Shown here: positions 12,282 through 28,407 of the stretch, piece after piece
Numbering within the stretch: position 1 is the first letter of the stretch
Layout of the letters: each line of letters opens with the position of its first letter
From: Bradyrhizobium sp. SZCCHNS1050
Lineage (GTDB): Bacteria > Pseudomonadota > Alphaproteobacteria > Rhizobiales > Xanthobacteraceae
Assembly (NCBI RefSeq): GCF_032484785.1
Contig: NZ_JAUETR010000002.1
Span: 1,426,001-1,490,000 of the forward strand
Direction: 5' to 3'
DNA: 64,000 nt
Program-made: the position numbers and the translations under genes
The notes under the pieces: generated by a model
Told to the model about the DNA's origin: nothing
Databases searched by the model: none
Seen by the model: the letters and a program-made list of their open reading frames with translations, nothing else

Positions 12282-12288
12282 CGCCCCC

Positions 12289-13152: not shown

Positions 13153-13201
13153 CGGTCGCGAATCCCGGAACGCTGGAGTGAAGCTGGTCGGACGAAGTCT
13201 A

Positions 13202-13300
13202 GATCATGATGCGATTCCACGGAATCGCATCATGATCTTATCCCTTTGTTTGAGCATGATCTTTTCGGAAAACCGGCTTCCACTTTTCCGGATCATGCTC
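13202..13300. repeat. Double palindrome, family D
   Basis: Two adjacent inverted repeats. The first has perfect 17-bp arms (13202-13218 and 13221-13237) around 2 nt. The second has 10-bp arms (GAGCATGATC at 13252-13261, GATCATGCTC at 13291-13300) and inner arms CGGAAAA/TTTTCCG. The second is a repeat type seen widely in Bradyrhizobium and Rhodopseudomonas genomes. Its outer end overlaps the first base of the stop codon of the gene at 13300. Confidence 0.85.
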
Positions 13301-14451
13301 TAGCCGCAGGACGCGGTTGCGGCCAGTTCGGGAGCGACGGCCGCGGCCTGCATCCGGCGCAGGCGGCGCCGCCGGCTCCGGTCGAGCCAGGCCTGGGTGG
13401 CCCGCTCGGTCATCGCCTTCAGCGATGCGACGAAGCTGAGCAGCGTCATCAGCGCGCCGAACAGCCAGAGCGCGAGATTGAATGCCCCCGCGGTCAGCAG
13501 CAGCGCGCCGCGGCCGAGCAGCTTCAGGATCGCCCGCGTCTGCCCGCCCTTGGCCTCCGCCAGGCGGGCCGCGCGGGCGATGTCCTTCGGTCCTTCGGCG
13601 AGCTTGAGCGAATCCAGTGCGCCGCGCGTGCCGGCCTTTTCGGTGATGCGGCCGACATCCTTGGCGAGCCGCACCAGCGCGCCGGCCTTCTCGGCGCGGA
13701 ACGCCGCCCGGATCGCGGTCGCGGTCTGGCCCGGACGAAGCACCGAGCCCGAGGCCACCGCCTGCTGCAACAGCGGCGCATCGACCACCTCGCGCGCGGA
13801 GCGTCCCGCCCAGGCGGCGAGCCCCTCGCCGAGCCGGCCAACCTTTCGCGCATCCTTCACCAGCGTCAGCCCGGCCCGCACTGGCGCGGCGGTGCCGGCC
13901 GAGGCATAGGTTGCGGCGGTGACGGCAAGACCGGCCGTGGCCAGGCCCAGCACCAGGCGGTCGGTCTCCTCGCCCATCACCAGATGCTTGCCTTCGCGGA
14001 CCGCGTCGCGGATGTCGCCGAACACGAAGAGATCGCCGGCTACCGTGCCGGACAGGCTCGCGACGTCGTCGGCCTGGCCGGTGACGAGCCCGGTCGCGAA
14101 CCGCTTGGCAACGCTGGCCGGCGCCTTCTCGGCGGCCACCGCATCGCTCACGCGCTGCACCAGCCCCTCGTCGAGCACCACCTGCTGATCCCGCGCGAGC
14201 GCGACGAAGCTCTCCGCGAGATCTGGATCGCCGGCGGCGAGCGCGTCCTCGATATTGCTGATGATCCGCGCCGGATCGTTCTGCAGAACGGACGCGATCT
14301 GAAGCTCCGACAGCCTCGCCGGATCGTCCTGCGCCACGACGATGGCTCCGGCCCCATAGGCGTGCGGCCATATCGCAGCGCCGACCGCGGCGCTCACGGC
14401 GAGCCCGGCCAGCGCCAGACCGAGTCCCAGCTTGATTCGCTTCGAGATCAC
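13300..14451 (-). CDS. Hypothetical membrane-associated protein
   Basis: About 383 residues if started at GTG 14451, where GAAGGCGG precedes by a few bases and an N-terminal hydrophobic helix follows directly (LGLGLALAGLAVSAAVGAAI). The frame is open to 14580 but that part is not membrane- or protein-like. Further hydrophobic stretches are at about 175-200 and 315-340 (LLLTAGAFNLALWLFGALMT). The middle is Ala-rich and helical. It ends in a basic RRRRLRRMQ stretch. Not recognised. The TAG stop is formed at the edge of the palindrome at 13252-13300. Confidence 0.65.
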   Translation of the reverse strand: MISKRIKLGLGLALAGLAVSAAVGAAIWPHAYGAGAIVVAQDDPARLSELQIASVLQNDPARIISNIEDALAAGDPDLAESFVALARDQQVVLDEGLVQRVSDAVAAEKAPASVAKRFATGLVTGQADDVASLSGTVAGDLFVFGDIRDAVREGKHLVMGEETDRLVLGLATAGLAVTAATYASAGTAAPVRAGLTLVKDARKVGRLGEGLAAWAGRSAREVVDAPLLQQAVASGSVLRPGQTATAIRAAFRAEKAGALVRLAKDVGRITEKAGTRGALDSLKLAEGPKDIARAARLAEAKGGQTRAILKLLGRGALLLTAGAFNLALWLFGALMTLLSFVASLKAMTERATQAWLDRSRRRRLRRMQAAAVAPELAATASCG

Positions 14452-14743
14452 GCCGCCTTCACGTTTTCGCGGGAACGATGCGGAGAGACATAATAATTTT
14501 TGTGCCTGACACAACGGCCCCGACGAAAGAAGGGCTTCTCGGCGGCCCTGAGTTTGTGTCGAATCCACAGGCCACAACATAACGGCGTGCGTTGCACCAA
14601 ACGCGGGTTCCCAGCACTAGGAATTGGCCTTAAGGCTCAGTATGGTCGCGCCGTTTTCGACGCGCGCGGCCGTGCGACCTCAGTCCCGTCCTGCTCCGTC
14701 GTGCTGACCGCATACGCTCCCGTTGCCACGCGAGGTGATACCG

Positions 14744-14986
14744 ATGGCCGATAACATCGTCCCGCATTTCAACAACGATGCCGGAGTCCCCGTCATCGAG
14801 ATCGGCTCGCATGAGTTCATGTGCGTGGGCGCCAATCCGCCGTTCGATCATCCGCACGTGTTCCTCGATCTCGGCAACGACAAAGAGATCATCTGCCCGT
14901 ACTGCTCGACGCTGTACCGCTATGCGCCGGACCTCGCCGCCGGCGAGGCGCGGCCGCCGGAATGCGTGCTGAAGGACGTCGCCTGA
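14744..14986 (+). CDS. Zinc-finger domain-containing protein (NDUFS6/zf-CHCC type)
   Basis: 80 residues from ATG 14744 (GAGGTGATACCG upstream). The zinc site is formed by Cys and His in EFMCVGANPPFDHPHVFLDL and by the CPYC pair in EIICPYCSTLYRY. This is the short zinc-finger module related to the NDUFS6 accessory subunit of complex I, found as a stand-alone protein across alphaproteobacteria. Whether it works with complex I here is not known. The monooxygenase gene starts 10 nt after its stop, so the two may be co-transcribed. Confidence 0.88.
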   Translation: MADNIVPHFNNDAGVPVIEIGSHEFMCVGANPPFDHPHVFLDLGNDKEIICPYCSTLYRYAPDLAAGEARPPECVLKDVA

Positions 14987-14996
14987 TCGGCGTGTC

Positions 14997-16196
14997 GTGG
15001 CATCGCGTACCGTCTATGTGGCGGGGGCCGGAATTGGCGGCCTGACGGCTGCGCTCGCGCTCGCCACCAAGGGCTTCCGCGTCGTCGTGCTGGAGAAGGC
15101 CGAACGGCTCGAGGAGGTCGGCGCCGGCCTGCAGCTCTCGCCCAACGCCAGCCGTATCCTGCTCGATCTCGGCCTGGGGCCGCGGCTGACCGCGCGTGCC
15201 GTGGTGCCCGACGCCGTCAGCATCATGAGCGCGCGGGCCGGCGGCGAGATCGCCCGCCTGCCGCTCGGCGAGGCCGCGAGCCAGGCGGCTGGCGCGCCTT
15301 ATTGGGTGATCCACCGCGCCGATCTGCAGGCGGCGCTGGCCGCGGAGGTGATGGCGCATCCGGACGTCGAACTGCGGCTCGGCTGCCAGTTCGAGGACGT
15401 CGCCGCCCACGCCAAGGGTCTGACCGTGGTGCATCGCCGCGGCAATGAGCGCCGCCAGGACGTGGCGCTGGCGCTGATCGGCGCCGACGGCGTGTGGTCG
15501 GCGGTCCGGCACCACCTGTTTCCGCAGGTCCGCGCCGAGTTCTCCGGCCTGATCGCCTGGCGTGGCACGCTCGACGCCCGGCAATTGCCACGCGAATTGA
15601 CGGCAGCGCGGGTGCAGCTCTGGATGGGCCCCGAGGCCCATCTCGTCGCCTATCCGATTTCGGCCGGCCGCCAGGTCAACGTGGTCGCGGTGGTGCCGGG
15701 GACCTGGAACCGGCCGGGCTGGAGCACGGAGGGTGATCCGAGCGAGCTGAAGGCGGCGTTCGCGCCGCCGCGCTGGCCCGCGACGGCGCGGCTGCTGCTC
15801 AATGCGGTCGACGGCTGGCGCAAATGGGCGCTGTTCGGCGTCCCCGAAGGCATCGAATGGACCGAGGGCAGCGTCGCGCTGCTGGGCGACGCCGCGCACG
15901 CCATGCTGCCCTTTGCAGCGCAGGGCGCGGGAATGGCGATCGAGGACGCGGTGGTGCTCGCCAAGTGCCTGAGCGAGGCGCGCCCGGACGGTCCGGGCGC
16001 GATCCCGGCTGCGCTGAAACGCTACGCCAAGCTGCGCCGCCCGCGTGTCGGCCAGGTGCAGCGCACCGCACGCAATCAGGGCCGCCTCTATCACATGACC
16101 GGACCGCTGGCGCTGGCCCGCGACCTCAGCATCAAGGCGCTCGGCCCGCAGCGCCTGTCGGCGCGGCAGAGCTGGATCTACGACTGGCGGCCGTAG
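14997..16196 (+). CDS. FAD-dependent monooxygenase, salicylate-hydroxylase-like
   Basis: 399 residues with the class A flavin hydroxylase landmarks: N-terminal GAGIGGLTAALAL (dinucleotide binding), the DG motif ADGVWSAVR and the GDAAHAMLPFAAQGAG flavin-binding box. Such enzymes use NAD(P)H and O2 to hydroxylate an aromatic ring. The closest types by motif are salicylate 1-hydroxylase and 6-hydroxynicotinate monooxygenase, but the substrate is not set by sequence. GTG 14997 is chosen as start because it puts the Rossmann strand at residues 5-9 as usual. It follows the zinc-finger gene by 10 nt. Confidence 0.9.
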   Translation: MASRTVYVAGAGIGGLTAALALATKGFRVVVLEKAERLEEVGAGLQLSPNASRILLDLGLGPRLTARAVVPDAVSIMSARAGGEIARLPLGEAASQAAGAPYWVIHRADLQAALAAEVMAHPDVELRLGCQFEDVAAHAKGLTVVHRRGNERRQDVALALIGADGVWSAVRHHLFPQVRAEFSGLIAWRGTLDARQLPRELTAARVQLWMGPEAHLVAYPISAGRQVNVVAVVPGTWNRPGWSTEGDPSELKAAFAPPRWPATARLLLNAVDGWRKWALFGVPEGIEWTEGSVALLGDAAHAMLPFAAQGAGMAIEDAVVLAKCLSEARPDGPGAIPAALKRYAKLRRPRVGQVQRTARNQGRLYHMTGPLALARDLSIKALGPQRLSARQSWIYDWRP

Positions 16197-16212
16197 GCGA
16201 AGCGGCCCGGTC

Positions 16213-16665
16213 TCAGTAGACCGAGCCGTCCCGCGGCAGGGTCGACGGCGTGCCCGCACCGGAGGCCATCGGCCGCGCGGGACGCGCCGGCTTGACCGGC
16301 TTGCCGGATTTCGCAGCAGCCGGCTGCGGTGCCGGGGTCTCCTGGCACTTGTTGCGGCGCCAGGCCTCTTCGGCGAACTGGGTCTGGCCACGGATCGCGA
16401 TATAGTCGTTGCGATAGGCGACCTCGGCCACCACCGCGCCGCCGGCTCCGGTCTCTGCCTTGGCCATCAGGCCCTGCAGCTCGGCTGCGCGCCCGGCCAG
16501 CGCCTTGCGCTCGGCCTCGAGCTGCTTGCAGTCATAGAGCTCATACTTGGCCGGATCCGCGAAGGCGGTCGACACGCTGTCGCTCATGCCGGCGCAGCCC
16601 GACAGCAACGATCCCAACCCCAGCAGTCCCGCGGCCAGCGCGACGCGAAGCCGATCGCTGGTCAC
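16213..16665 (-). CDS. Lipoprotein of unknown function
   Basis: About 150 residues from GTG 16665. The signal sequence ends in a canonical lipobox (LLSGC), so the mature protein is likely lipidated at that Cys. Residues about 45-110 are helical, with one Cys (YDCKQLEAE) and a second (NKCQET) that could pair. The C-terminus is Pro/Ala/Lys-rich and probably unstructured. The frame runs upstream to 16932 but without signal or ribosome-site support. Envelope location is inferred from the lipobox. Confidence 0.7.
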   Translation of the reverse strand: MTSDRLRVALAAGLLGLGSLLSGCAGMSDSVSTAFADPAKYELYDCKQLEAERKALAGRAAELQGLMAKAETGAGGAVVAEVAYRNDYIAIRGQTQFAEEAWRRNKCQETPAPQPAAAKSGKPVKPARPARPMASGAGTPSTLPRDGSVY

Positions 16666-17235
16666 GCAGCCTCGACCGTGCGGCGGCGTCGAGCCATTGG
16701 CTCGATCATGGGCTGATCGGCCGCGGACATCGGCCCGAACGGCGGCAGCATTCGTCTCTGCGATGGTCCTCGGATTCGTCACGCTCACCTCGCCCAACGA
16801 CCGGCCCGCAAGGGATGCGGATCCGAATCGGATTCTCGTGATGGGTCCGTGCCTTACAACGGCCGCTTCGTCCATGTCTTGCACCACGTGATCCCAGACT
16901 TGGCAGAGCGCTTCAACGCGAAGGCATCTCAAAGCAGCTGGTGACGGCCGGATTGAGGCTTTACCAAGGCGCTCGCGCTGGCTTGAGCAGGAGCTTCGTC
17001 AGGCACGCCATTGCCGGACGCTTACGGTTTTTCACCTTGATCCGGTCCCTTTCACGGTGCGGGCGGTCAATCGGTTTCGACACCATCCCCTCTTATCCCT
17101 TGCTGCGGGCGGCGGGGACAGGTCGGCCCCGATCTCGCCGTGCCCAAGGGAGCGACGAGGAGGCCGCCCGAGCGAGAGAAACAAGCTTCGGGGCGGGACG
17201 GCGGCGCCGGCCACAGAGCGCCGCCGTTGGCGAGA
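16666..17235. other. Gene-free stretch of about 570 nt
   Basis: No open frame with protein-like composition on either strand. The translations are dominated by Arg, Ser and Pro. No hairpin, repeat copy or RNA gene was recognised. It marks the junction from the conserved block to the exported-paralogue/arylsulfatase block. Confidence 0.4.
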
Positions 17236-17802
17236 TCAGCGATCGGCATCACCGATGCGAATATAGATGCGCGATCCATTGCAGATCTGAGCGTACTGGT
17301 TGCCATCGGAACGGCTGACCAATTGGACGATCGGCGCGGGCTGGGCGAATGTGATGGTCCGCGCGCCCTCGCTGATCACCCCAGTCGCATCTGCAACGTC
17401 GGCGACTTGCGTCAGCCCGGCGATCGGGCCGGTCAGGATCGTGTGGCTGTACGTGCCCGGCACCGCCTTGAGCAACACTCTCTCATCGGAGGCGATCGTG
17501 TAGGTGAACTTGTATGAGGTAACGCCGGTCTCGCCTCCGCCGGTGTCCACCGAGAAGTCCTGGACATCCATCATCCCGGTGCCATCGGCGCGAAGCACCA
17601 TGACGCCTTCGACGGTGAAGGAAAAGAGCTTCAGCGGGCCGCCCTTTGGCGTGAAGTTCGAATTGAATCCGACAGCGGCCGGATTCCGGATGCACAACGA
17701 TTTGCCAGCTAACGCATAGGTTCCGCGTAGACTTGCATGATCATTCGCAGACGCGGCCGTGCTTGCCGTCGCAGCGGCGGCCAAAATAAGAAAGCGGTGC
17801 AT
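17236..17802 (-). CDS. Exported hypothetical protein, tandem paralogue 2
   Basis: 188 residues with a signal peptide (MHRFLILAAAATASTAASA). The mature part is beta-rich, with GTYAL, FTVEGVMVLRADGTG and a C-terminal Cys in QYAQICNGSRIYIR. It shares its whole architecture with the gene upstream (17843): both have a Cys in the N-terminal part and one in ICNGS, which could form a disulfide. The family is not recognised; lipocalin-like strand patterns are possible but unproven. The 40-nt gap suggests one transcript. Confidence 0.8.
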   Translation of the reverse strand: MHRFLILAAAATASTAASANDHASLRGTYALAGKSLCIRNPAAVGFNSNFTPKGGPLKLFSFTVEGVMVLRADGTGMMDVQDFSVDTGGGETGVTSYKFTYTIASDERVLLKAVPGTYSHTILTGPIAGLTQVADVADATGVISEGARTITFAQPAPIVQLVSRSDGNQYAQICNGSRIYIRIGDADR

Positions 17803-17842
17803 ATGGTTTCCTCCCCGATCAGAACAATGGCTCGCCCTTACA

Positions 17843-18412
17843 TCAGCGGTCGTCGTCGCTGAGGCGGGTCATGATGAGAGATCCATTGCAGATCCGGGCA
17901 AACTGGGTGCCATTGGAACGACTGACCGTCAGGACGGTCGGCGCGGGCGGGGCGAGGACGATGGCCCGTGCTCCTTCGCCGATGAATCCGCTGGTGTCGG
18001 GAACATCGACGACTTGCGTCAACCCGGCGTTCGGTCCGGTCAGGGTCGTGGAGCTGTACGTACCTGGCACCGCCTTGACCGACAGCTTGCCACCGGGGTC
18101 GATCGAGTAGGTGATCTGGTACGAGATATCGCTGGTCGTCCCTTCGCCGGCGTCGACCGTGAAGGACCGGTTGTTCACCGTGCCGGTGCCGTCGGCGCGA
18201 AACACCATGACGCCGTCGACGGTGGTGGCGAAGAACACGACCGGACCCTTTGGCAAGAAATTCGAATCGAATCCGATCGACGCCGAGTTCTGGATACAGT
18301 CCGATGCGCCCGTCATCGCATAGGTCCCGTGAAGCCGACTGGGGTGATCATGAGCAAACGCCGCCGCGCTTGCAGTGATACCGACGAGGACCAGAATAGA
18401 AGAGCGATGCAA
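17843..18412 (-). CDS. Exported hypothetical protein, tandem paralogue 1
   Basis: 189 residues with a signal peptide (MHRSSILVLVGITASAAAFA). It aligns end to end with the downstream gene: HGTYAMTG, TTVDGVMVFRADGTGTV, KAVPGTYSSTTLTGP, GLTQVVDV and ARICNGSLI are shared motifs with conservative changes. The pair arose by tandem duplication and has diverged considerably; by eye, roughly half the residues are identical. Periplasmic or secreted location is inferred. Function is unknown. Confidence 0.8.
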   Translation of the reverse strand: MHRSSILVLVGITASAAAFAHDHPSRLHGTYAMTGASDCIQNSASIGFDSNFLPKGPVVFFATTVDGVMVFRADGTGTVNNRSFTVDAGEGTTSDISYQITYSIDPGGKLSVKAVPGTYSSTTLTGPNAGLTQVVDVPDTSGFIGEGARAIVLAPPAPTVLTVSRSNGTQFARICNGSLIMTRLSDDDR

Positions 18413-18758
18413 AATAGCCTCCCTGATCGAATGATCGCCCTTGCGTGGGCTGGAGGTACCATATGCCGCAAAGATGACGATTAGTCGCTGTTAGTAACAA
18501 AGCTGCAAAATAGCGCCACACCCGCAAGAGTTGATTGCTCTGCGGCAATTTCTCATGCGAACAGCTCGACTCCAGCAGGCGCAATCTTCACATCAGTCCC
18601 CGCTCCTCGTGCATCCACAACCAGCCGTGCCGGATCCGAGGTCGTGTCCCCGGTGGTGGTGTAGCTAGCGGTGGGGCAGCGCGTTCGCCGGGGAGAGCCG
18701 GGCAGGTCAGCTGGCGATTGCCGGGGCGGGAGCTGGGCCGCCACGGCTCATCAAAGCC
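18413..18758. other. Gene-free gap upstream of the paralogue pair
   Basis: About 345 nt between the start of one minus-strand gene and the stop of the next. It is less GC-rich around 18480-18560 and probably holds the promoter of the exported pair. No repeat or terminator was recognised. Confidence 0.35.
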
Positions 18759-19808
18759 TTATTTCGTGATCATCCGCCTCGGTGGCGCGGTCGGTGTTGG
18801 TGCTGCCGGCGAGATGACAAACGTCACCCAGGCGTTCCAGCCGTCAGGCCGGTTTTCCGCGGCAAATTCCTTGTAGGCCTTAAAGTTGAGGTAGCCTTGC
18901 ATGTCACCAACCGGGAAGATAAACCCGACCTGCGGGCCGACACCCGCGACCTGCGAGCGGAAGCAGCCGACGCGATCGCCGGAGCCGCTATCGCAGCCAA
19001 GTTGCTTGTAGACGTAGCCCACCAGCCCGATCTGGACCTGCTTGCTCAGGAATTGCGAAGCGCCCCAGTCGAAGTGCATGTCGACGCCGCTTTGATACTG
19101 CGTGTCAGGATTTGTGAAATTGTAGGTGAAGCCTAGCACGCCGGAGAGCTCATGTCCGCTCTGTGGATTGAAATAGGTGTAGCCGCCGCCCGCATCGATC
19201 GTCCCATGCCCGATCCCGATATTGGCGAGGCGCGTGGACTGGTAAGCGCCGACAGGGATGTCACCCATCACGTAGGTCATGTAGTTGTTGACGCCCGCGT
19301 TCCAGCGCAGTGCGAATTGGGGGATCAAATCGCCGAAGCCAGTGATGGAATCGCTGACGGAATCAAAGCGCGAGAACGGAATTGAGCCGCCCGGTGTTGA
19401 AAGCGAGCCCGTCACCAATCCATTGAGCGAGGTTGTATTTGCGCCGTAGATTCCGATCAGGCTTGCAGACGCCTGACCACCGAGAACCGGTGTCGCGAAG
19501 ACGTAGGTCGCGTTCAGCAGGCCAAGATCGACGTTCGCATTGACGTTTGCGTTCAAGGTAGCTGTCAGATTCGCAGGAATACGGCCGATCTGGATCTCAC
19601 GAGCGCGCGCCACGTCCCTGCCGGCAGACACTGAGGTATGATAGTAAATTGACGCAGCCGACCAACCGGGCTGCTGAGGCGTGGCGGCAAGGCTACCGAA
19701 TGTGCCCGGAATCCAAAAGCTGATGCCGCTCTCATCTGCCGAGACAATCGTCGGTACTGATGCAATGGTCGCAAATGCAATAGCGCCAAGCGCCCTCGTC
19801 ATTCTCAT
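18759..19808 (-). CDS. SphA-type outer-membrane transporter/porin
   Basis: 349 residues from ATG 19808, with an AGGAG site about 8 nt upstream. A signal peptide (MRMTRALGAIAFATIASVPT, ending VSA) is followed by alternating amphipathic strands with many Gly, Asn, Tyr and Phe (GGGYTYFNPQSGHELSG, VLGFTYNFTNP, VGPQVGFIFPVGDMQGYLNF). This fits the phenol-degradation meta-pathway/SphA group of outer-membrane beta-barrels (PF13557 type), thought to pass hydrophobic compounds. Two Cys in the GCDSGSGDRVGC loop may form an extracellular disulfide. The frame back to 20009 is not supported. Its neighbours across the gap are arylsulfatase and DUF1254 genes. Confidence 0.8.
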   Translation of the reverse strand: MRMTRALGAIAFATIASVPTIVSADESGISFWIPGTFGSLAATPQQPGWSAASIYYHTSVSAGRDVARAREIQIGRIPANLTATLNANVNANVDLGLLNATYVFATPVLGGQASASLIGIYGANTTSLNGLVTGSLSTPGGSIPFSRFDSVSDSITGFGDLIPQFALRWNAGVNNYMTYVMGDIPVGAYQSTRLANIGIGHGTIDAGGGYTYFNPQSGHELSGVLGFTYNFTNPDTQYQSGVDMHFDWGASQFLSKQVQIGLVGYVYKQLGCDSGSGDRVGCFRSQVAGVGPQVGFIFPVGDMQGYLNFKAYKEFAAENRPDGWNAWVTFVISPAAPTPTAPPRRMITK

Positions 19809-19920
19809 GGCAATCTCCTGCCGAACCACGACCCTCGCGCATAGTGAGTGACGAGCATGATGCTGACAGCATGACAGGCCGTACTGCGCCGGGCGATAGC
19901 CGTCACGATGATAGGGAACA

Positions 19921-19943
19921 ATTTGCAACCGGATGTTGCAAAT
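19921..19943. promoter_or_regulatory. Perfect inverted repeat, candidate operator
   Basis: ATTTGCAAC, 5 nt, then GTTGCAAAT. This perfect 9-bp dyad lies 113 nt upstream of the SphA-like gene start at 19808 and about 760 nt before the divergent arylsulfatase gene. The spacing of half-site centres (14 nt) suits a dimeric helix-turn-helix regulator. No regulator gene lies next to it, so the binding protein is unknown. Confidence 0.45.
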
Positions 19944-20178
19944 GGAGCACAGTGTCGCGCTGGTCCGCCGCTTAGCAAAGAATTGCTGTTTGTTCCTAAG
20001 GAAATTCACGCGGCGCTTTGAGAGACAGGATAGCCTCGCGCGTGATCATGAGAGACAAACCTCGTCGCCGTTTGGGAAAGTGCCTTTTGGTTTCTCGTCT
20101 TTCAGGAGGCAGTTGCCAGCTACATCCATAGGGCCACACGGCCTCCGCACAGCCATCTCCCAGGTCAAGACGATTGCC

Positions 20179-20316
20179 CTACTCGAGACGATCGCTCTTG
20201 ATCGCAAGCCGATGCTTCGCAGAAAGCTTCTGCCAAGAAACCAACGAAACTGCTGCAACCAAGGTGATCGCGAGCGCGGCGCCGACGACGGGATGATTGA
20301 GCTTGTAGGCGAGCAT
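20179..20316 (-). CDS. Possible 45-residue single-TM protein
   Basis: A short minus-strand frame from ATG 20316: a cytoplasmic start with Lys/Asn/His, then a transmembrane helix (VVGAALAITLVAAVSLVSW) and a basic tail (KLSAKHRLAIKSDRLE). The topology is convincing for a small membrane protein. The ribosome site is not obvious and the other frames here look noncoding. The remainder of the 19809-20704 gap shows no other gene. Confidence 0.35.
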   Translation of the reverse strand: MLAYKLNHPVVGAALAITLVAAVSLVSWQKLSAKHRLAIKSDRLE

Positions 20317-20704
20317 AGCGTATCGCTGTCGATCCAGGAAGACCAGGAAAGCTTGCCCTTGACGGTTTGAGACTCAGAAAATGTTCCCCATTGATTTCGC
20401 TCAAGGTCCGTTATTCGACTTGTTCGGTGCAGCACGATGCCGAGCGTGTGCGCGTGTCCTGCTCTTCAATATTTCTTCGATATTTGATGGTTCTTTGCAG
20501 ATGCCTGACCGGCGTGAGACATCGGCAGGTCCATACAATAATACAATAGATGAGCGTGCCCCGCTGGTTAGCACAGCCAGGCGATCGCATCTGCCCTAGG
20601 CGCCTTCGCGCGTGGGTTGATCTGCGTCAACGTCGCTCCTTGCGCCGTCCTAGAGGATCACAAGCATCTGCGCGGTTGCGCGCACCTCTTGGGGAGGGCC
20701 TGCG

Positions 20705-23191
20705 ATGAATTTTCGTGCGATTGCTTCCATATTGTTTTTGACGTCGGCGATATCCGCCCCCGCGTTTGCACAGCAAGCGCAACCGACTACGCCGCCGCTC
20801 GGCTCCCCGGCCGCGACCATCACCATTCCGGGCGACCAGCTTCCACCGCCACCGCCGAAATTCGGCGGCACGATCACGGAGGATGCGAAGACCTCGAAGC
20901 CGTGGTGGCCTCCGACGGTCGTGCCGGGTAAAGGTGCGCCGAACGTTCTGCTGATCATGACCGACGATTCCGGTTATGGCGTGCCGAGCACATTCGGCGG
21001 GGTGATCCCAACGCCAACGCTCGATCGCATCGCCAAGAATGGCCTGCGCTACACCCAATTCCACTCGACGGCGCTCTGCTCGCCGACGCGAGCGGCTCTG
21101 ATCACCGGTCGCAACCATCACTCGGTCGGCTTCGGCCAGATCAGCGAACTGGCGACTGGATATCCGGGCTATGACTCGGTCATCGGTCCGGAGAACGCGA
21201 CTATCGGCCGGATTCTGAGCGACAACGGATATGCCACATCGTGGTTCGGCAAGAACCACAACACGCCGTCCTTCCAATACAGCGCGGCCGGTCCGTTCGA
21301 CCAATGGCCGAGCGGGATGGGCTTCCAGTACTTCTACGGCTTCATGGGTGGCGAGACCGACCAGTGGACGCCGTACCTGTTCCGCGACCACACCCCCGTT
21401 TACCCGTGGGTCGGGAAGAAGGGCTACAACCTGATCACCGACATGGCGGACGACGCGATCCGTTACATGAAGGAACTTGACGCCGCGGCGCCCGAGAAAC
21501 CGTTCTTCGTCTACTACGTACCTGGCGCAACCCATGACCCGCACCAGCCAACCAAGGAATGGATCGACAAGATCAGCAAGATGCACCTGTTCGACCAGGG
21601 CTGGGAGAAGTTGCGAGACCAGATCTTCGCCAACCAGAAGCGATTGGGCGTGATTCCCGCAAACACGCAGCTCACGCCGTGGCCGGACGTCTTGCCGAAG
21701 TGGGATTCGCTCTCGGAGGTGAAGAAAAAGATCGTCATTCGCGAGGCCGACGTGTTCGCGGCCTATACCGCCTATGTCGACGATGAGATCGGCCGGGTGA
21801 TCCAGGCGGTCGAAGACATGGGCAAGCTCGACAACACGTTGATCATCTACATCAACGGCGACAACGGCACGAGTTCGGAAGGCTCGATGATGGGTACGCC
21901 AAACTGGCTGACGGTCGCCAATGGCGTGCTCGATTTGCCGGAGGTCGAGTATCTTCGATATTACGAATCCTGGGGTTCGGACCAGACCTATCCGCACATG
22001 GCCGTGCCGTGGGCGTGGGCGTTCGACACGCCCTTCAAGTGGACCAAGCAGATCGCGTCGCATTTCGGTGGGACGCGGCAGGGTATGGCTATCTCGTGGC
22101 CCGGCCACATCAACGATGTCGGAGGCATTCGCCCCCAGTTTCATCACGTGATCGACATCGTGCCCACAATCCTTGAGGCGGCCGGCATCAAGGCGCCCGA
22201 CATGGTCGACGGCATCAAGCAGAAGTCGATTGAAGGCGTTAGCATGGCGTACACGTTCGACAAGGCAAATGCCAACGCACCGTCGAAGCGCACGACCCAG
22301 TACTTCGAGATGTTCGCCAACCGCGGCATTTACCACGAAGGCTGGTACGCCGCGACCACACCACCCGAGCCGCCGTGGCTTGTCGGCACGAAGGCGCTGC
22401 CGCCGGTCGAGCAGTACAAGTGGGAGCTCTACAACCTTGCCGAGGACTTCTCGCAGGCGGACGACCTTGCGGCGACGAATCCCGAGAAGCTCAAGGAACT
22501 GCAGGCGGTGTTTGCGGCGGAGGCGAGCAGGTACCAGGTGTTTCCGCTGGATAACTCGGTGCTCCCGCGACTTCTCACGCCGCGGCCGAGTGGGACGGCA
22601 GGGCGAACGGAGTTCACCTATGTCGGTGAGAACGCTGACATTCCGATTGCCAATGCTCCCAGCCTCCTGAACAGGGACTACACGATCACAGCCGAGATCA
22701 CCGTGCCCAGTGGAGGTGCCGAAGGGATGATCGCTACAATGGGCGGGAGGTTCGGTGGCTACGGCCTTTACCTGCTCAAGGGCAAACCGGTCTTCGTCTA
22801 CAATCTTCTCAATCTCAAACGTTACCGCTGGGAGGGCGGCGTTGGAGCCGATGACTGGCTGGGCCAGGCGCTCAGTCCGGGTAAGCACAAGATCGTCTTC
22901 GACTTCAAATACGATGGACCCGGACTCGGCAAAGGCGGCAGCGGTGTCCTTTCGGTTGACGGCCGAGTGCTGTCGCAACAAAAAATGGAACACACGATTC
23001 CATTCATGATGGCGATCGATGAATCCATGGACGTTGGGCTCGATACCCGCACCGCGGTCGATGATAGCTATACGCTGCCATTCCGATTCACAGGCACGAT
23101 CGACAAACTGACCTACAACATCAAGCCGGAACAGTTGGCTGAGGAAGATCGCAAAGCCATGCAGAAGGCCGCGACCAAAGCAAACGACTAG
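20705..23191 (+). CDS. Periplasmic type I arylsulfatase
   Basis: 828 residues. A signal peptide ends near residue 22 (AFAQ). The catalytic motif C125-S-P-T-R129, within ALCSPTRAALITGRN, is the site where formylglycine is made from Cys. Asp87-Asp88 (MTDDSGYG) and a GDNG motif provide metal ligands. The sulfatase domain spans about 75-560, and the C-terminal 200 residues form a beta-rich LamG/concanavalin-like domain (GGRFGGYGLYLLKGKPVFVY). It hydrolyses sulfate esters, and substrate class cannot be read off. GGGAGGG sits about 6 nt before the ATG. No formylglycine-generating enzyme gene lies in the window, so one must be encoded elsewhere. Confidence 0.93.
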   Translation: MNFRAIASILFLTSAISAPAFAQQAQPTTPPLGSPAATITIPGDQLPPPPPKFGGTITEDAKTSKPWWPPTVVPGKGAPNVLLIMTDDSGYGVPSTFGGVIPTPTLDRIAKNGLRYTQFHSTALCSPTRAALITGRNHHSVGFGQISELATGYPGYDSVIGPENATIGRILSDNGYATSWFGKNHNTPSFQYSAAGPFDQWPSGMGFQYFYGFMGGETDQWTPYLFRDHTPVYPWVGKKGYNLITDMADDAIRYMKELDAAAPEKPFFVYYVPGATHDPHQPTKEWIDKISKMHLFDQGWEKLRDQIFANQKRLGVIPANTQLTPWPDVLPKWDSLSEVKKKIVIREADVFAAYTAYVDDEIGRVIQAVEDMGKLDNTLIIYINGDNGTSSEGSMMGTPNWLTVANGVLDLPEVEYLRYYESWGSDQTYPHMAVPWAWAFDTPFKWTKQIASHFGGTRQGMAISWPGHINDVGGIRPQFHHVIDIVPTILEAAGIKAPDMVDGIKQKSIEGVSMAYTFDKANANAPSKRTTQYFEMFANRGIYHEGWYAATTPPEPPWLVGTKALPPVEQYKWELYNLAEDFSQADDLAATNPEKLKELQAVFAAEASRYQVFPLDNSVLPRLLTPRPSGTAGRTEFTYVGENADIPIANAPSLLNRDYTITAEITVPSGGAEGMIATMGGRFGGYGLYLLKGKPVFVYNLLNLKRYRWEGGVGADDWLGQALSPGKHKIVFDFKYDGPGLGKGGSGVLSVDGRVLSQQKMEHTIPFMMAIDESMDVGLDTRTAVDDSYTLPFRFTGTIDKLTYNIKPEQLAEEDRKAMQKAATKAND

Positions 23192-23212
23192 CCTGGTCAT
23201 TCCCAGCAAAGC

Positions 23213-23236
23213 AGTGGGGAGCAAAAGCTCCCCACT
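23213..23236 (+). other. Intercistronic hairpin after arylsulfatase
   Basis: Perfect 10-bp arms (23213-23222 and 23227-23236) around an AAAA loop, 21 nt after the arylsulfatase stop. There is no T-run behind it, so it is more likely an mRNA 3'-end stabilising or attenuating hairpin than a strong terminator. Confidence 0.6.
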
Positions 23237-23410
23237 CTCAGAACCCGATGTGTTCCGGGTCTCGCATCGGGGATAGTCGCTTATATGGACCTGCCATCTG
23301 CGTCATCTGCGGTGGCCTCCCTCTTCGACGGCTTGCGACCGAAAGACGGGACGTTTCGAGCTTAGGTCAAATATGGGTCGAGCGGCGCACTAATGAAAAG
23401 GAGATCGCTC

Positions 23411-24892
23411 ATGAATTCATCTGCTGGACAGGAAGGCATTTCGCTTCATCGCCGCTGCCTGCTCACGACCGCACTCGGTGCCGGGCTGGGCACAGCCTTG
23501 TCATCCACAAGAAGCGAGGCGGCCGGCCCGCTGCTGCGCGCACTCGGCGACCTGAAGGGCGATGTCGAGGAAGAACTGGCGTATGTTCTTGCGTTGGAAT
23601 GCTATGTCTACGGCTTTCCGCTTGTCATGATGGACGCAACCCGAGCGGTGATGACTGCCACGTCGAAGTCCGAACAGTATAAAGCGCCTGTCAACCAGTT
23701 CGGCAGGATGCGGACTTATGTCGATCCGGATTTCAAAGACTGCGTCCGCATCAGCGTCAACTCCCTCTGGGCGTTTTCATTCATCGACCTGGACAAGGAG
23801 CCGTTCGTCTATTCTCAGCCCGACACTCAGGGGCGATACATCATCATGCAGGCGCTCAACATGTGGACCGACGATTTCGCCTCGGCGGGCAGTCGGACGA
23901 CCGGAACTGGCGCCGGAAACTTCCTGATCGCCGGCCCCAAATGGAACGGTGTTGCGCCCAATGGCATCAAGCAAACGTTCCGATCGACGACGCGCTACGC
24001 ATCTGTTCTGGTCCAGATCGCATGCGACAGCCCCAAGGAGTTCGTTGCAATCAACAAGCTGCAGGATGAATTGCAACTGACGCCGCTCAGCGCCTGGGGC
24101 AAGTCCTACACGCCACCCTCCGATGTGCCGATCGACACCAGTGTCGATACAACGGCGACGCCGTACGATCAGGTGCGGCTCATGACCGGCGAGATGTTCT
24201 TCAAGCGCCTCGCCGCTGCGTTGAAGGACAACCCGCCTTACCCTGACGACGCCAAGACTATCGACAAGCTCAAGCGCATCGGGATCGAGGTCGGCAAGGA
24301 CTTTGAACCGTCCAAGCTCGATCCGGCCGTTCTGCGGGGGATCAACCGGGCGCCGGCCGAGGTCTGGTACAAGCTGGAAACAGGCCCCTACACTGCGCCG
24401 ACCGTGAACGGCTGGCAGGGCGCGCTGAATATCGGTCGCTTCGGTACCGACTACACCACGCGGGCATTCATCGCCTGGTTTGGATTGGGGGCGCTGACGT
24501 CGGACGATGCGGTCTATCCAACCGCCTTTGTCGATGGCGACGGCAACGTGCTGGACGGCGCGGCGAAGTATGTTCTCCATCTGGAGAAGGACGAGATATT
24601 CCCATCCGAAGCTGGGGTCTGGTCGGTCTCGCCCTATCGCGAGAATTTCTATGTTCGGAACGCGATCAACCGCTACGGCATCACTTCGGCGATGCCGATC
24701 AAATACAATCCAGACGGCTCGCTCGATATCTACATCCAGGCGCAATCACCAGGCGCCGACAAGGAAACGAATTGGCTTCCGTGTCCGCCGAGCCTGCCCT
24801 TCAATCTCAGCGTCAGGGTCTATCAGCCCAAGACTGCCCTTAAGGATGGCACGTTCAAGATCCCGCCCGTCCGGCGCGTTCGCGACACCTGA
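23411..24892 (+). CDS. DUF1254/DUF1214 domain protein, Tat-like export signal
   Basis: 493 residues from ATG 23411; AAGGAG at 23397-23402 is placed for this start and overlaps the earlier ATG at 23393, which is therefore rejected. The N-terminus has HRRCLLTTALGAGLGTAL, a twin-arginine-like signal. The DUF1254 domain (about 50-190, with ECYVYGFPLVMMDATRAVM) is followed by DUF1214 (about 360-475, with NFYVRNAINRYGI). The family is periplasmic and uncharacterised. It often neighbours arylsulfatases and hydrophobic-compound porins, as here. Confidence 0.88.
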   Translation: MNSSAGQEGISLHRRCLLTTALGAGLGTALSSTRSEAAGPLLRALGDLKGDVEEELAYVLALECYVYGFPLVMMDATRAVMTATSKSEQYKAPVNQFGRMRTYVDPDFKDCVRISVNSLWAFSFIDLDKEPFVYSQPDTQGRYIIMQALNMWTDDFASAGSRTTGTGAGNFLIAGPKWNGVAPNGIKQTFRSTTRYASVLVQIACDSPKEFVAINKLQDELQLTPLSAWGKSYTPPSDVPIDTSVDTTATPYDQVRLMTGEMFFKRLAAALKDNPPYPDDAKTIDKLKRIGIEVGKDFEPSKLDPAVLRGINRAPAEVWYKLETGPYTAPTVNGWQGALNIGRFGTDYTTRAFIAWFGLGALTSDDAVYPTAFVDGDGNVLDGAAKYVLHLEKDEIFPSEAGVWSVSPYRENFYVRNAINRYGITSAMPIKYNPDGSLDIYIQAQSPGADKETNWLPCPPSLPFNLSVRVYQPKTALKDGTFKIPPVRRVRDT

Positions 24893-24918
24893 AGAACTTG
24901 CAAGGACTGCGCGAGGAG

Positions 24919-25371
24919 ATGGACAGTGTAATCCAGTTGGTGCCGGTAACGCCTTCAATCGACCAACTGGCACGGATCATCGGCAACGTGGCGGCCCCGG
25001 CTTTCCTGCTGGGAGCCGTCGCGTGCTTCATCTCGGTTCTTATTTCCCGCATCAACCGTGTGGTCGACCGGGCCCAGTTCCTTCACGGCATCACCGATGA
25101 TGATGCTTCAAAGGCTTACCTCAAGACGGATATTCCCCGGCTGCGGCACCGGGCTTCGCTCCTGAACAGGTCGCTGTTCTGCTCCATCCTTTCTGCGATC
25201 CTCACCGCCCTCATCATCATCGTTGCCTTCATCAGCGCCCTGTTCGATGTTGCCCACGAATATGGCGTGGCGCTGCTGTTCATGGCTGCGCTGCTGACGT
25301 TCTGCGCTTCTCTCATCGACCTCGCCCGCGAAACCCGAATTGCACTTCACGACAACGACCTGCGCGTGTAA
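24919..25371 (+). CDS. DUF2721 family membrane protein
   Basis: About 150 residues from ATG 24919; a TTG at 24898 would add seven codons. Three transmembrane segments: about 26-43 (APAFLLGAVACFISVLI), 90-112 and 118-138. The cytoplasmic loop has basic helices and the family-typical segment ISRINRVVDRAQFL. DUF2721 proteins are small inner-membrane proteins of unknown function. The gene follows the DUF1254 gene by 26 nt, so it belongs to the same transcript. Confidence 0.85.
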   Translation: MDSVIQLVPVTPSIDQLARIIGNVAAPAFLLGAVACFISVLISRINRVVDRAQFLHGITDDDASKAYLKTDIPRLRHRASLLNRSLFCSILSAILTALIIIVAFISALFDVAHEYGVALLFMAALLTFCASLIDLARETRIALHDNDLRV

Positions 25372-25392
25372 GTCTTCCAGGGCAGTCGAGGG

Positions 25393-25725
25393 GTGATCGG
25401 ATGTGACGAAGAGGTCCCGGAAGAGGCGCGGGCGTCAGAATGCCACCGCGACGGCCCGCCGTGGAGCTCCGAGAAGCTCATGCAGGCCACCGTGAGCCAT
25501 TGGCTGCGCGAGAAGGAGCGCGAGGGCCTGATCGGCGCCGGCACCACCCTGCACGGCCTCCGCGTCTCCTACGCGGCCTGGTGGAAGCGCAATGGCGCGA
25601 CGGACGCGGAGATCGCCGACCTGCTGGGCGACAAGTCGCAGCGGATGGGAACCCACTATACTCGGCACGTCTCCCGGGAGGACAATGTAGTCCGGGCGTT
25701 CAAGCGATTGAAGAATATGGATTAA
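25393..25725 (+). pseudogene. Tyrosine recombinase (integrase), C-terminal remnant
   Basis: 110 codons resembling only the last third of a phage-type integrase. His54-x2-Arg57 (LHGLRVSYAAWW) is the HxxR box, and Tyr89 in MGTHYTRHVS is the likely nucleophile. The Arg and Lys of the N-terminal part of the catalytic domain, and the whole core-binding domain, are missing. LLGDKS replaces the usual LGHxS. The first 20 codons look unrelated. It cannot be a working recombinase and marks past integration of a mobile element next to the cassette at 25771-27419. Confidence 0.75.
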
Positions 25726-25770
25726 TCGCCTGGGTATTCACACGGAACTGAAGAATGATCCGCGCTTAAG

Positions 25771-26178
25771 CTATGATCCTTCGGCCTCACCGCCTTCCGA
25801 GATCTCAGCAGCTTTCATGCGCGCGAGCCGAAGCTCTTCCTCTATCAGAGCCTCCTGTTCACGCTGGCGCTGTGCAACGGTCATGCGCTCCTCCCTGATC
25901 GCTCGGGCGCGCGCCCTTAGCTCTTCTTCGGTCAAGGTGCGCACGATCTCGCCCGAGGGTAACCTTCCTAAAGCTCTTTGGATAGTTTCGTAATCAGCTG
26001 ACGGAGGGGCACGTCGTCTGGGTGACGTCAGTCTTGCTGTAATTTCATCGACAAGAGGAGCAAAGAATTTCTCCGGCGAGGCCAGCACCAGATTTTGTTG
26101 ACGCAACAGCGCCATCATCTCCTGCGCCAGTTCGGCGTAGTCCGGTGGTCGATCAGCGGCCGCCGCGGGTTGTGCCAT
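25771..26178 (-). CDS. Hypothetical coiled-coil protein of the TIR cassette
   Basis: 135 residues, with no signal or membrane segment. After an Ala-rich start, residues 14-30 are helical (YAELAQEMMALLRQQNLVL). The C-terminal half is Arg/Glu-rich with heptad-like spacing (EEELRARARAIREERMTVAQ and beyond), predicted as coiled coil. Not recognised. The gene starts 21 nt after the TIR-like gene ends, on the same strand, so co-transcription is likely; its own ribosome site is weak. A role as partner or oligomerisation factor of the TIR protein is only a guess from position. Confidence 0.6.
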   Translation of the reverse strand: MAQPAAAADRPPDYAELAQEMMALLRQQNLVLASPEKFFAPLVDEITARLTSPRRRAPPSADYETIQRALGRLPSGEIVRTLTEEELRARARAIREERMTVAQRQREQEALIEEELRLARMKAAEISEGGEAEGS

Positions 26179-26199
26179 CGAGGATTGTTCTAGCAGAAG

Positions 26200-26664
26200 C
26201 TAAACTGGCTTTTCGATACTCGGCCAAAGCATTGGAAAGAGCTGATCCAACTCGTCGTCGGAACGGCGTTGCTCGGGCTCGACCGCCTCGTTTATATCAC
26301 CAATAAGCTTCCGGAAATCCTGTTCGCCAAAGACCGTTCCCTGGAAGATTCTTAGCGGCGCTTTGACGTCAGAATGCCCGATGTCGAAGAGGACGGTCGC
26401 CCCCCGGCCAGACAGGTGCTTGGACAGGGCACCAGCCTCGAACGCAATCCATTGAGAATCCAGGTTTTCTCGCGTGAGAACAACCAAGCCGAAGCTGGAT
26501 TTCTCAAGTTCGTCTCGAATCACCCCCTGCCATTGAGCTCCCTTCTCGATGTCAGTTGTAGTGATAAACGGCTTGACCGCAGGCAGAATTAACGGAGACC
26601 ATTTTCGGAGCTCGTTGGCGATTTGTTGGCTCGACTGCCCTGACCAGCTAATAAAAAGCTTCAT
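26200..26664 (-). CDS. TIR-like domain protein
   Basis: 154 residues, essentially one TIR/TIR_2-like domain. MKLFISWSG is strand A with the box-1 Ser/Trp pattern, KPFITTTDIEKGAQWQGVI is the BB-loop region and Glu76 in WIAFEAGALSK is at the position of the catalytic Glu of NAD-cleaving TIR proteins. Bacterial TIR domains either hydrolyse NAD or make cyclic ADP-ribose isomers in phage defence; others only bind nucleotides. ATG 26664 overlaps the stop of the GrlR-like gene by 4 nt (ATGA), and GGAG lies about 7 nt upstream. No sensor domain is fused, so activation would need a partner. Confidence 0.8.
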   Translation of the reverse strand: MKLFISWSGQSSQQIANELRKWSPLILPAVKPFITTTDIEKGAQWQGVIRDELEKSSFGLVVLTRENLDSQWIAFEAGALSKHLSGRGATVLFDIGHSDVKAPLRIFQGTVFGEQDFRKLIGDINEAVEPEQRRSDDELDQLFPMLWPSIEKPV

Positions 26665-27005
26665 TTGAAATCTCCGGGCCTCGCGACGCGCCGTAGACTG
26701 ATTGCCAGCGGGACGGGAGGCACCCCACGACCAAGCGCCCGGCCCTGCGCCATGATCAGATCATCATCGGCAAGCCCGACGAAGCTCACCTCGAGCTCTC
26801 TCAGCGGACCGAAAGCGCTACTGAGCGCTCCGGCATAGTGCACCACGCGAATCTTACCCGTGACGCGATTTCCGTCCTGTTGATATGATCCATAGTAGTA
26901 GTAGCCGCTGTCGCCACCCGACAAATTGCCATCCTGGATGGTCATCACCCCCACACCTTCGCTCAGAGCTGCGAACTGAGCGGTCCAGAGGCCATTTATG
27001 TCCAT
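26661..27005 (-). CDS. GrlR family protein
   Basis: 114 residues from ATG 27005 with AAGGAG 6 nt upstream; the longer frame to 27044 has no such site. The hallmark of the GrlR fold is present at residues 29-41: SGGDSGYYYYGSY, preceded by GVGVMTIQDGNL and followed by GNRVTGKIRVVHY. E. coli GrlR is a small lipocalin-like repressor partner that binds and blocks the activator GrlA. Stand-alone relatives occur widely with unknown ligands. Here it is translationally coupled to the TIR-like gene, suggesting it controls or senses for it. Confidence 0.75.
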   Translation of the reverse strand: MDINGLWTAQFAALSEGVGVMTIQDGNLSGGDSGYYYYGSYQQDGNRVTGKIRVVHYAGALSSAFGPLRELEVSFVGLADDDLIMAQGRALGRGVPPVPLAISLRRVARPGDFK

Positions 27006-27098
27006 GACGGCTCCTTCAGAGGCAAGGCTCTCTACCATTGGCATATAAGATCACGCTCACTCGCAATGCTGGGGTAGTGCGGCTGAGGAACATAGATT

Positions 27099-27419
27099 AT
27101 GGAGATTGCAGGGAAAATGCTCACCTGGGAGACTGCACAAACGACCCTCACTTGGCTATCTGTGCTCGCCGGTGGCGCAGCGGCATATCTTTGGTACCGC
27201 GCCTCTGTCGTAGTGGTGTGTGAAGGCGATCCCAAAGACGTCCCCGGGTACTACCTTGGCATGAACCATCCTTGGGCAAAAAAGGCAGGAAAGCAGATCA
27301 GCGTGCTGGGGACTTTTGCTGAAGGATCTCGCCTAAATCAGAGAGCCGCCATCGTCACCGGGATTTCTATCGGGCTCCAGGCGCTCGCTGTTGCCGCTGG
27401 CTACTTCGTGGCGAAGTGA
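27099..27419 (+). CDS. Two-TM membrane protein divergent from the TIR cassette
   Basis: 106 residues from ATG 27099, with GAGGA about 9 nt upstream. Two transmembrane helices lie at about 15-35 (TLTWLSVLAGGAAAYLWYRA) and 82-103 (IVTGISIGLQALAVAAGYFV). They are joined by a soluble loop with basic and aromatic residues (YYLGMNHPWAKKAGKQ). Not recognised. It begins 93 nt from the start of the divergent GrlR-like gene, so they probably share a control region. Confidence 0.65.
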   Translation: MEIAGKMLTWETAQTTLTWLSVLAGGAAAYLWYRASVVVVCEGDPKDVPGYYLGMNHPWAKKAGKQISVLGTFAEGSRLNQRAAIVTGISIGLQALAVAAGYFVAK

Positions 27420-27507
27420 ACGAGAACAGAACGAGTTTTGTCTAACACTGGGCGGTTCCCGTCTAACGCTTGCCGCGGCAGACGAAAAAGGGTAGCGCAA
27501 TCAACAG

Positions 27508-27594
27508 GCGGACGTGGCGGAACGGGTAGACGCAAGGGACTTAAAATCCCTCGATGGCAACGTCGTGTGGGTTCGAGTCCCACCGTCCGCACCA
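27508..27594 (+). tRNA. tRNA-Leu (anticodon UAA)
   Basis: Complete cloverleaf of 87 nt with encoded CCA. The acceptor stem is GCGGACG with CGTCCGC, the anticodon stem AGGGA/TCCCT (27535-27551) holds loop CTTAAAA with anticodon TAA at 27542-27544, there is a long class II variable arm, and the T-loop is GGTTCGAGTCC. It reads UUA leucine codons. Integrative elements often use tRNA-Leu genes, and an integrase remnant lies 1.8 kb upstream. Confidence 0.97.
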
Positions 27595-27630
27595 GCCCCG
27601 TGCACGCCCCGCTCGGCCGCCCTGCCCGGC

Positions 27631-28407
27631 TCAGTTCAACGCCGCCAGCCGCTCGAGCTCGGCGAGATCGGTAACCTCCAGCCTGCCCTCCGAGATCGTC
27701 AGGATCTTGCGATCGCGAAACAGCGCGAGCACGCGGCTGACATGGACCGAGGTCAGGCCGACGGCGTCGGCGATGTGCTGCTGCTTCAAGGGAAACGGAT
27801 AGCGGTGGTGCTGGACCACACCGTCCACCGCGACGCGCCGCATCAGGCTGAGCAGCAGATGCGCGATCCGACGCTCGGCCGGACGCTGGCCGAGCACGGT
27901 GATGAGCTCGTAGGAGGCCCGGCCGTTGTCGCCGAGAGAGCGGAACACCTCCATCATGACCAGCTCGTCGGCGCGGCACTGCTTGCGGACCTCCTCGCCA
28001 TCGAGCCGGCTGACCTGGACCTGGGTCAATGCCTTGGCCGAGAAGCTCATGCCTTTGGCGAAGATCGCCGCCGGCGAGAAGATGTCGCCCGGCAGTAGGA
28101 AGCGCAGGATCTGGCGGCCGCCATCCGACAACTGGATGTAACGGAATGCCCAGCCGCTGCAGAGTACGAGCACATCGTCGCGCGCCTCGCTCTGGCATTT
28201 GATCTGCTGGCCGGCCCGGACGGTGAAGAACTGCTGATGGAGCCGCGGCAGCGCCGACTGCGCCCGGCAGGCCTTGAAAAGCGCGGCACAGAATCCGGAA
28301 TCGACGTGGGTGCAGGAGACGCAGCAGCCGGGGAGATCGGGTTCTGATCGCAGCATCAAGGGGTGCGCGCTTGTGTCCAATCCGTCCCGCCGACCCGGCT
28401 TCGTCAT
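27631..28407 (-). CDS. Crp/Fnr family regulator, FnrN-like with N-terminal Cys cluster
   Basis: 258 residues. The N-terminal Cys motif C29-x2-C32-x7-C40 (with C28 adjacent) matches the spacing of the [4Fe-4S]-binding Fnr/FnrN/FixK1 group. Further Cys at 71 and 83 could supply the fourth ligand. The cyclic-nucleotide-binding-like barrel covers about 58-150 and the helix-turn-helix about 207-230 (KQQHIADAVGLTSVHVSRVL). Oxygen-sensing transcription control is the likely role, but the exact fourth ligand is uncertain. No Fnr box (TTGAT-N4-ATCAA) was seen nearby. Confidence 0.85.
   Translation of the reverse strand: MTKPGRRDGLDTSAHPLMLRSEPDLPGCCVSCTHVDSGFCAALFKACRAQSALPRLHQQFFTVRAGQQIKCQSEARDDVLVLCSGWAFRYIQLSDGGRQILRFLLPGDIFSPAAIFAKGMSFSAKALTQVQVSRLDGEEVRKQCRADELVMMEVFRSLGDNGRASYELITVLGQRPAERRIAHLLLSLMRRVAVDGVVQHHRYPFPLKQQHIADAVGLTSVHVSRVLALFRDRKILTISEGRLEVTDLAELERLAALN

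Follow-up and report, generated by a model that had tools for sequence, protein, structure and literature searches.

Layout of the locus

The window, that is, the whole stretch of 64,000 nucleotides analysed here, belongs to a Bradyrhizobium genome of 7.62 Mb. The earlier note on this sequence had proposed a four-gene defence module consisting of a GrlR-like gene, a TIR-like gene, a third gene for a coiled-coil protein and a divergent gene for a two-helix membrane protein. All these open reading frames (ORFs) are present at the positions given for them, and an integrase remnant and a tRNA-Leu gene indeed flank the set (Table 1). The end of the GrlR-like ORF and the TIR start share the sequence ATGA, and 93 nt separate the GrlR-like gene from the divergent ORF, given that the former starts at 27005.

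Table 1. Features of the cassette and its surroundings (window coordinates).
Feature	Position	Strand	Basis
Integrase C-terminal remnant (tyrosine recombinase), N-terminal part missing	~25450..25725	+	Profile and DNA matches; borders the DUF2721 segment near 25450-25458
Single TIR gene (TIR domain and helical/coiled-coil tail) broken by an in-frame stop	25771..26664	-	Same frame; intact homologue P0072
TIR gene, 5' part: TIR domain, 154 aa, Glu76	26200..26664	-	Profile matches and alignment
In-frame TAG of the TIR gene, falling in the predicted helix 136-164 of P0072, the intact homologue	26200..26202	-	Sequence and P0072 model
TIR gene, 3' part ("coiled-coil gene" of the earlier note), ATG without evident ribosome site	25771..26178	-	BLASTP, tail homology
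GrlR-like beta-barrel gene, 114 aa, stop overlapping the TIR start (ATGA)	26661..27005	-	Profile, model, fold match
Small membrane-protein gene, 106 aa, divergent from the GrlR-like gene	27099..27419	+	ORF; hydropathy; homologues
Putative attachment arm, paired TGTCTAAC/GTCTAAC repeats at 27439-27467, layout common to related elements	27420..27507	+	Alignment
tRNA-Leu (anticodon TAA), presumed integration target	27508..27594	+	tRNA prediction; position in related elements
Low-GC island, left edge approximate	16900..27507		1-kb GC profile; G008 comparison

Integrase, tRNA-Leu arm and island

The integrase remnant scored below the Pfam cut-off and was recovered with E 5.6e-7 in another search. 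Its relatives at the DNA level were found in 14 other genomes among the 257 searched (own included). In 12 of these 14 genomes, tRNA-Leu or its 5' fragment lies in line after the integrase; the exceptions are G053 with inverted tRNA-Leu fragments only and G171 with no tRNA-Leu match near the integrase. The distance from the integrase stop to the tRNA equals 43-115 bp in 11 genomes, 916 bp in G177 and 1783 bp in the window. The integrase frame is short (<240 aa) in six of the 14 genomes as well.

The short gaps align to window positions 27420-27507 (12 genomes), and therefore the cassette (25726-27419) looks inserted between the integrase and the arm. Paired repeats were recognized by eye in 11 of these 12 genomes, the sequence being cut short in G140. 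The repeats are TGTCTAAC in the window and TGGAAAAC or TGCAAAAC in the others; the pattern occurs once in the window and in none of 100 shuffles. Such paired repeats are as expected of putative integrase arm sites. The integrase, arm and tRNA standing in line, with only a remnant left of the integrase, fit an integrative element targeting a tRNA gene. The second attachment end (the left tRNA fragment) was found neither in the window nor among the matches listed for the own genome (E to ~1e-3); such a fragment is present in G177 and G043.

G177 has the nearest integrase (87% DNA identity). Its slot contains one gene (L206:5336-5944) with a weak SieB-like match (E 7e-4, 19.6 bits with the cut-off of 26) and no PADLOC match at E 0.01. 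A tRNA-Leu 5' fragment of G177 at L206:2738-2770 marks an element of ~3.5 kb. In G025, the full tRNA-Leu gene is accompanied by three 5' fragments within ~47 kb (L216, L220, L221), suggesting repeated insertions at one tRNA-Leu. The tRNA-Leu(UAA) genes of the genus fall into clearly different types, those of nine integrase-bearing genomes being 94-98% similar to the gene in the window, and those of two others and of G008 (L239), ~81%.

The GC content in 1-kb steps, profiled from 14 to 30 kb, is ~0.55-0.65 between ~16.9 and 27.5 kb versus 0.65-0.73 on either side. The island is absent from G008, where matches to window 9643-16607 (73-86%, gapped) end ~240 bp before its tRNA-Leu(TAA), and an additional 15-base match extends to window 16962. 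G008 is only an approximate empty site, because its tRNA gene is ~20% different from that in the window and no match exists between the sequences to the right of the two genes. The segment 23291-25458, containing DUF1254 and DUF2721 genes, has an 88.5% homologue elsewhere in G008, and this homology ends at the integrase remnant. The cassette appears to be the right end of an island of ~10.6 kb with a truncated integrase and with no left tRNA fragment found in the window.

At third codon positions, the GC content is 0.57-0.66 for the cassette ORFs. The genes to their left (DUF1254, DUF2721, sulfatase) reach 0.75-0.78, and crp, the integrase remnant and the glutathione-transferase-like genes 0.87-0.90. 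The values for the cassette are consistent with, and no proof of, foreign origin. The scan of 25380-27650 for promoters and terminators yielded one site each, no more than in shuffles, and no promoter-like site on the strand of the GrlR-like and TIR genes.

One TIR gene interrupted by a stop codon

The TIR ORF and the coiled-coil ORF start at 26664 and 26178, respectively. These starts are 486 nt apart, a multiple of three, and therefore both ORFs share one frame; between them lie a single in-frame TAG and seven codons. In the protein search, database entry P0072 (296 aa) showed 76% identity over 99% of the read-through frame with X placed at the stop. When the halves were aligned separately, the identity to P0072 was 137/154 before the stop and 90/137 after it. 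The coiled-coil ORF itself matched entries P0002, P0008 and P0015 by BLASTP (E 8e-15, 3e-15 and 2e-13), and the motif EMMALLRQQN..L.SPEKF from the tails of P0002-P0025 is present in this ORF too. Tblastn with the tail ORF alone gave no match in the TIR loci compared, hence its identity rests on close relatives.

The lengths of TIR-family proteins agree with this assignment. The first search of the protein database used the 154-aa ORF and yielded 68 entries including the own one, with candidates up to about 270 aa. The 24 closest full-size other entries (P0002-P0025) are 245-268 aa long in 23 cases and 211 aa in one. At 125 of 126 other loci, the TIR ORF has 181-379 aa (median 295). In the model of P0072 (mean pLDDT 85.9), the TIR domain extends to residue ~127 and is followed by helices 136-164, with the position of the stop inside, and 239-292.

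Judging by these comparisons, the coiled-coil ORF makes up the 3' half of the TIR gene and is no separate gene, and the third gene of the earlier note has to be withdrawn: it is in frame with the TIR ORF and homologous to the C-terminal tail of full-length relatives. The coiled-coil gene as a third component is thus ruled out by the shared frame, the BLASTP matches of the tail and the intact P0072.

A second allele, P0001, differs from the window protein in one residue (residue 88, where at least 90% of 25 close sequences share the other residue) and likewise ends at 154. A single sequencing error is therefore an unlikely source of the stop. The window copy of the TIR gene is probably a pseudogene; the stop is seen directly in the sequence, and the activity has presumably been lost with it.

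Entries of at most 175 aa constitute 11 of the 67 others in the first protein search. P0026, P0034, P0035 and P0051 have ends that, by eye, are unlike the TIR family and resemble frame breaks; either genes of this family tend to break, or the assemblies contain errors here. P0033, P0054, P0062, P0063 and P0068 stop within or right after the domain, as by contig ends or breaks.

The TIR family and its distribution

The 154-aa ORF barely passes the Pfam threshold for TIR_2 (PF13676; 28.3 bits, cut-off 28) and also matches TIR (PF01582; 23 bits, cut-off 21.3). Glu76, pointed out in the earlier note together with the TIR assignment, is invariant in 52 aligned sequences, and both observations are thereby borne out. 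It aligns with the glutamate of QWPARE in a solved TIR protein in a non-significant match (E 0.31); this glutamate is catalytic in TIR enzymes. The Foldseek search with the P0072 model retrieved SPARTA TIR-APAZ (E 9e-6), SpbK (E 2e-4) and AbTir (E 2e-3).

In the genus, the family is present in six of 265 genomes including the own one (E 1e-10), with 42-46% identity in the five others, and in the order, in four of 397 genomes including the own one (E 1e-25). Judging by the titles of the records, members occur in many phyla (among the best 80 of 350 relatives, none above 49% identity). The family was also found in 10 plasmid records, four phage records (two phages) and 39 viral contigs. In the phages P2_AC1 and mEp390 the family member is a single gene with the annotation "hypothetical". 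Hence the family looks like a single-gene TIR protein of the moron type. When the 675 neighbour ORFs at 125 loci were clustered, no wide partner of the TIR gene emerged, the largest neighbour family occurring at seven loci, all in viral contigs.

No report of anti-phage activity of this family was found in the literature searched, largely without subscription journals. The TIR gene is plausibly defence-related, given the presence of the family in phages and viral contigs, the mobile setting, and the start overlapping a gene of the GrlR fold.

The GrlR-like gene and its linkage to TIR

The start of the GrlR-like gene is best placed at 27005: it is preceded by AGGAG, and database entries P0069-P0071 begin there. 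The assignment to GrlR, made in the earlier note, holds by profile and by fold and fails by Pfam. In the profile of 13 GrlR-like sequences, two solved GrlR sequences came out on top (E 8e-4 and 1e-3), with nothing else below 0.5. The model of the protein (pLDDT 89.9) has eight strands and matches 4kt5_A in Foldseek with E 2.2e-5 and TM 0.74. Pfam PF16518 did not match this ORF or anything in the whole host genome even at E 1, nor did it match P0069, P0070 and P0071 at E 10.

Using the E 1e-3 threshold, GrlR-like genes were found in all 146 of 146 genus genomes, own included, with 1-10 genes in each. They form a large family in Bradyrhizobium, and those in the host genome are unmatched by Pfam PF16518. 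The close subfamily is confined to one of 296 family genomes, the own one (E 1e-13). In the protein database, P0070 and P0071 are the only close entries besides the own P0069. Beyond the own genome, the search of the class yielded one GrlR-like gene, 33% identical (E 3.5e-13) and lacking an adjacent TIR gene. Viral contigs scanned with the close GrlR alignment contained no confirmed relative, and plasmid records had no match to the GrlR-like protein or to the membrane protein.

The linkage was studied in both directions. The HMM of 32 GrlR-like sequences was applied to ORFs of at least 50 aa at 127 other TIR loci and in the window, 1.49 Mb in total. These loci came from the best 80 of 350 relatives, 39 viral loci and eight whole-genome matches; L005 and L113 are one place, leaving 126 places. 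The only match was the window itself. None of the 127 other loci has a GrlR-like ORF near TIR, all of them being at most 49% identical to the window TIR. The reverse search, with the TIR HMM on 31 other GrlR loci (30 places, as L228 and L231 coincide), mostly with 1.5-kb flanks, detected no TIR. These counts cover sequences with genomic context, so that the close TIR relatives of 59-89% identity (P0002-P0025, P0072) and the closest GrlR relatives (P0070, P0071), which are database entries without it, stand outside them.

Thus, in the neighbourhood check set beforehand, the pair recurred at 0 of 127 TIR loci, all distant, and at 0 of 31 GrlR loci, and the expectation of a recurrent pair was not borne out. 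The GrlR-TIR pairing is a single observation among the distant relatives compared. No paper on GrlR with TIR, or on GrlR-like proteins in prophages, was found in a search largely without subscription journals. As it stands, the pair is a thin lead.

The divergent membrane-protein gene

The membrane protein was described in the earlier note as having two helices. One clear hydrophobic segment stands (19-residue windows starting at residues 83-86), and the second, N-terminal one does not, no 19-residue window there exceeding 1.6. At E 1e-4, homologues beyond the own genome were found in two of 194 genus genomes, G222 (69%) and G255 (36%). The homologue in G222 (L229:8145-8507) is ~1.1 kb from a CBASS operon (L229:9569-12337) encoding a phospholipase, an E2 protein and a cyclase. 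This locus of G222 gave no GrlR or TIR match by tblastn. With no more than two loci to judge from, the membrane-protein gene might be a small gene in its own right within neighbourhoods of the defence type.

Near both homologues are genes for look-alike proteins with a hydrophobic N-terminus, L229:6881-7573 in G222 (230 aa) and L230:8263-8916 in G255 (217 aa); their likeness was judged by eye.

Interpretation

In our reading, which has a probability of roughly three in four, the set is what remains of decayed cargo in an integrative element of tRNA-Leu; the TIR protein at its centre is of a known kind, and its gene is now interrupted by a stop. The cargo would have been placed between the 3' end of the tyrosine integrase gene and the arm of a tRNA-Leu(UAA) element in Bradyrhizobium. 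Its core would be a single-gene TIR protein, having an N-terminal TIR domain with a glutamate at the catalytic position and a long helical or coiled-coil tail. By analogy with other bacterial TIR proteins, the tail would sense infection and assemble the protein, resulting in NAD cleavage, and it is from such analogy that we infer a former NAD-cleaving anti-phage role. The product of the GrlR-fold gene upstream would most likely have been a small protein that partners or regulates TIR, a weaker step of the scheme. Since the in-frame TAG cuts the gene after the TIR domain, the full protein would not be made; most likely the gene is decaying and its activity presumably lost. On the whole, most of what is seen here is the ordinary decay of cargo genes in a mobile element.

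As for the GrlR-like gene, it has a somewhat less than even chance of being an unrelated passenger whose position upstream of TIR is accidental and which has no effect on the TIR protein. Such genes are common in the genus, no TIR was seen at the 30 GrlR places examined, and the TIR relatives examined do without a GrlR-like gene. Against this, the ATGA overlap and a GGAG sequence within the end of the GrlR-like gene, ahead of the TIR start, suggest co-translation of the two genes, and P0070, the closest GrlR relative, retains nearly the same C-terminal end.

A doubtful extension would be that close relatives, with P0070-like and P0072-like genes, carry an intact GrlR-TIR unit, in which the lipocalin-fold GrlR-like protein would bind a small ligand or the TIR tail and hold the NAD-cleaving TIR off until infection. 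Such a unit would be a ligand-gated immune switch, located in a new defence slot of tRNA-Leu(UAA) elements.

It is improbable that the split of the TIR gene is functional, with the short TIR protein made on purpose, two proteins produced by re-initiation, or the stop read through. A stop common to two alleles could in principle be retained rather than decaying; in addition, the tail frame is open for 135 codons past its ATG, and P0030 (153 aa) and P0032 (152 aa), which could be natural short forms, end near residue 154 of the window protein. However, 125 other loci have no TIR ORF under 181 aa, the second ATG lacks an evident ribosome site, and the stop falls inside a single predicted helix in P0072.

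It is very unlikely that several genes form a working module here, with GrlR as the sensor of a signal or as a brake on TIR and with the coiled-coil and membrane proteins as further parts: the ATGA overlap, the ribosome-site-like sequences before the GrlR-like and TIR genes, the action of E. coli GrlR on a partner from a two-gene operon (PMC4933562) and the membrane-protein homologue near CBASS in G222 speak for it, but the coiled-coil component is the TIR tail, the TIR gene is interrupted, and 0 of 127 other TIR loci, all distant, have a GrlR-like ORF. Neither the four-gene composition nor the working state proposed in the earlier note is supported. What stands of the defence link is the occurrence of the TIR family in phages, the mobile setting and the homologue near CBASS; the functioning four-gene module does not.

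Reading raw sequence at the ORF level can make one interrupted gene seem a multi-gene system. In Bradyrhizobium, the fixed cargo slot between the integrase and the tRNA-Leu arm is a place to look for other small defence genes. Should the GrlR-TIR pair turn out to be genuine in other genomes, it would offer a small and readily tested example of a TIR enzyme under the control of a lipocalin-fold protein.

Comparison with known systems

The closest described counterpart of the TIR gene is the PADLOC model PDLC03016 (TIR-TM), along with phrog_13899, both matched by the window TIR over residues 1-152 (E 2e-50 and 6e-47). P0072 matches PDLC03016 to residue 247, whereas the window ORF covers only positions 1-152 of the 293 in the model. 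None of 126 relatives has a tail with a 19-residue hydropathy window above 1.6 (the maximum in the P0072 tail is 0.54), hence the label "TM" of this model is inappropriate for these TIR relatives.

SPARTA and Thoeris have the TIR fold in common with the window TIR family. In PADLOC, the four cassette ORFs matched no ThsA model, and ThsB only with E 0.049; models for TIR-APAZ with a short Argonaute, as in SPARTA, were absent from their matches too.

According to PMC4933562, GrlR of E. coli is cytosolic, has the lipocalin fold and acts on a partner belonging to a two-gene operon. The window protein resembles this GrlR (L0044; PDB 2ovs, 4kt5) in the eight-strand barrel (TM 0.74 to 4kt5) and in membership of a two-gene operon. 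The neighbour of the E. coli gene encodes an HTH activator, whereas the window gene neighbours a TIR gene and has no PF16518 match.

P4 satellites, as described by Rousset et al. (2022, PMC9122126), have a cargo hotspot between psu and int. Variable cargo of the defence type at a fixed place beside an integrase is common to that hotspot and to the slot described here; the slot in the window, in contrast, is bounded by the 3' end of the integrase and by the tRNA-Leu arm, and only two filled examples of it were seen.
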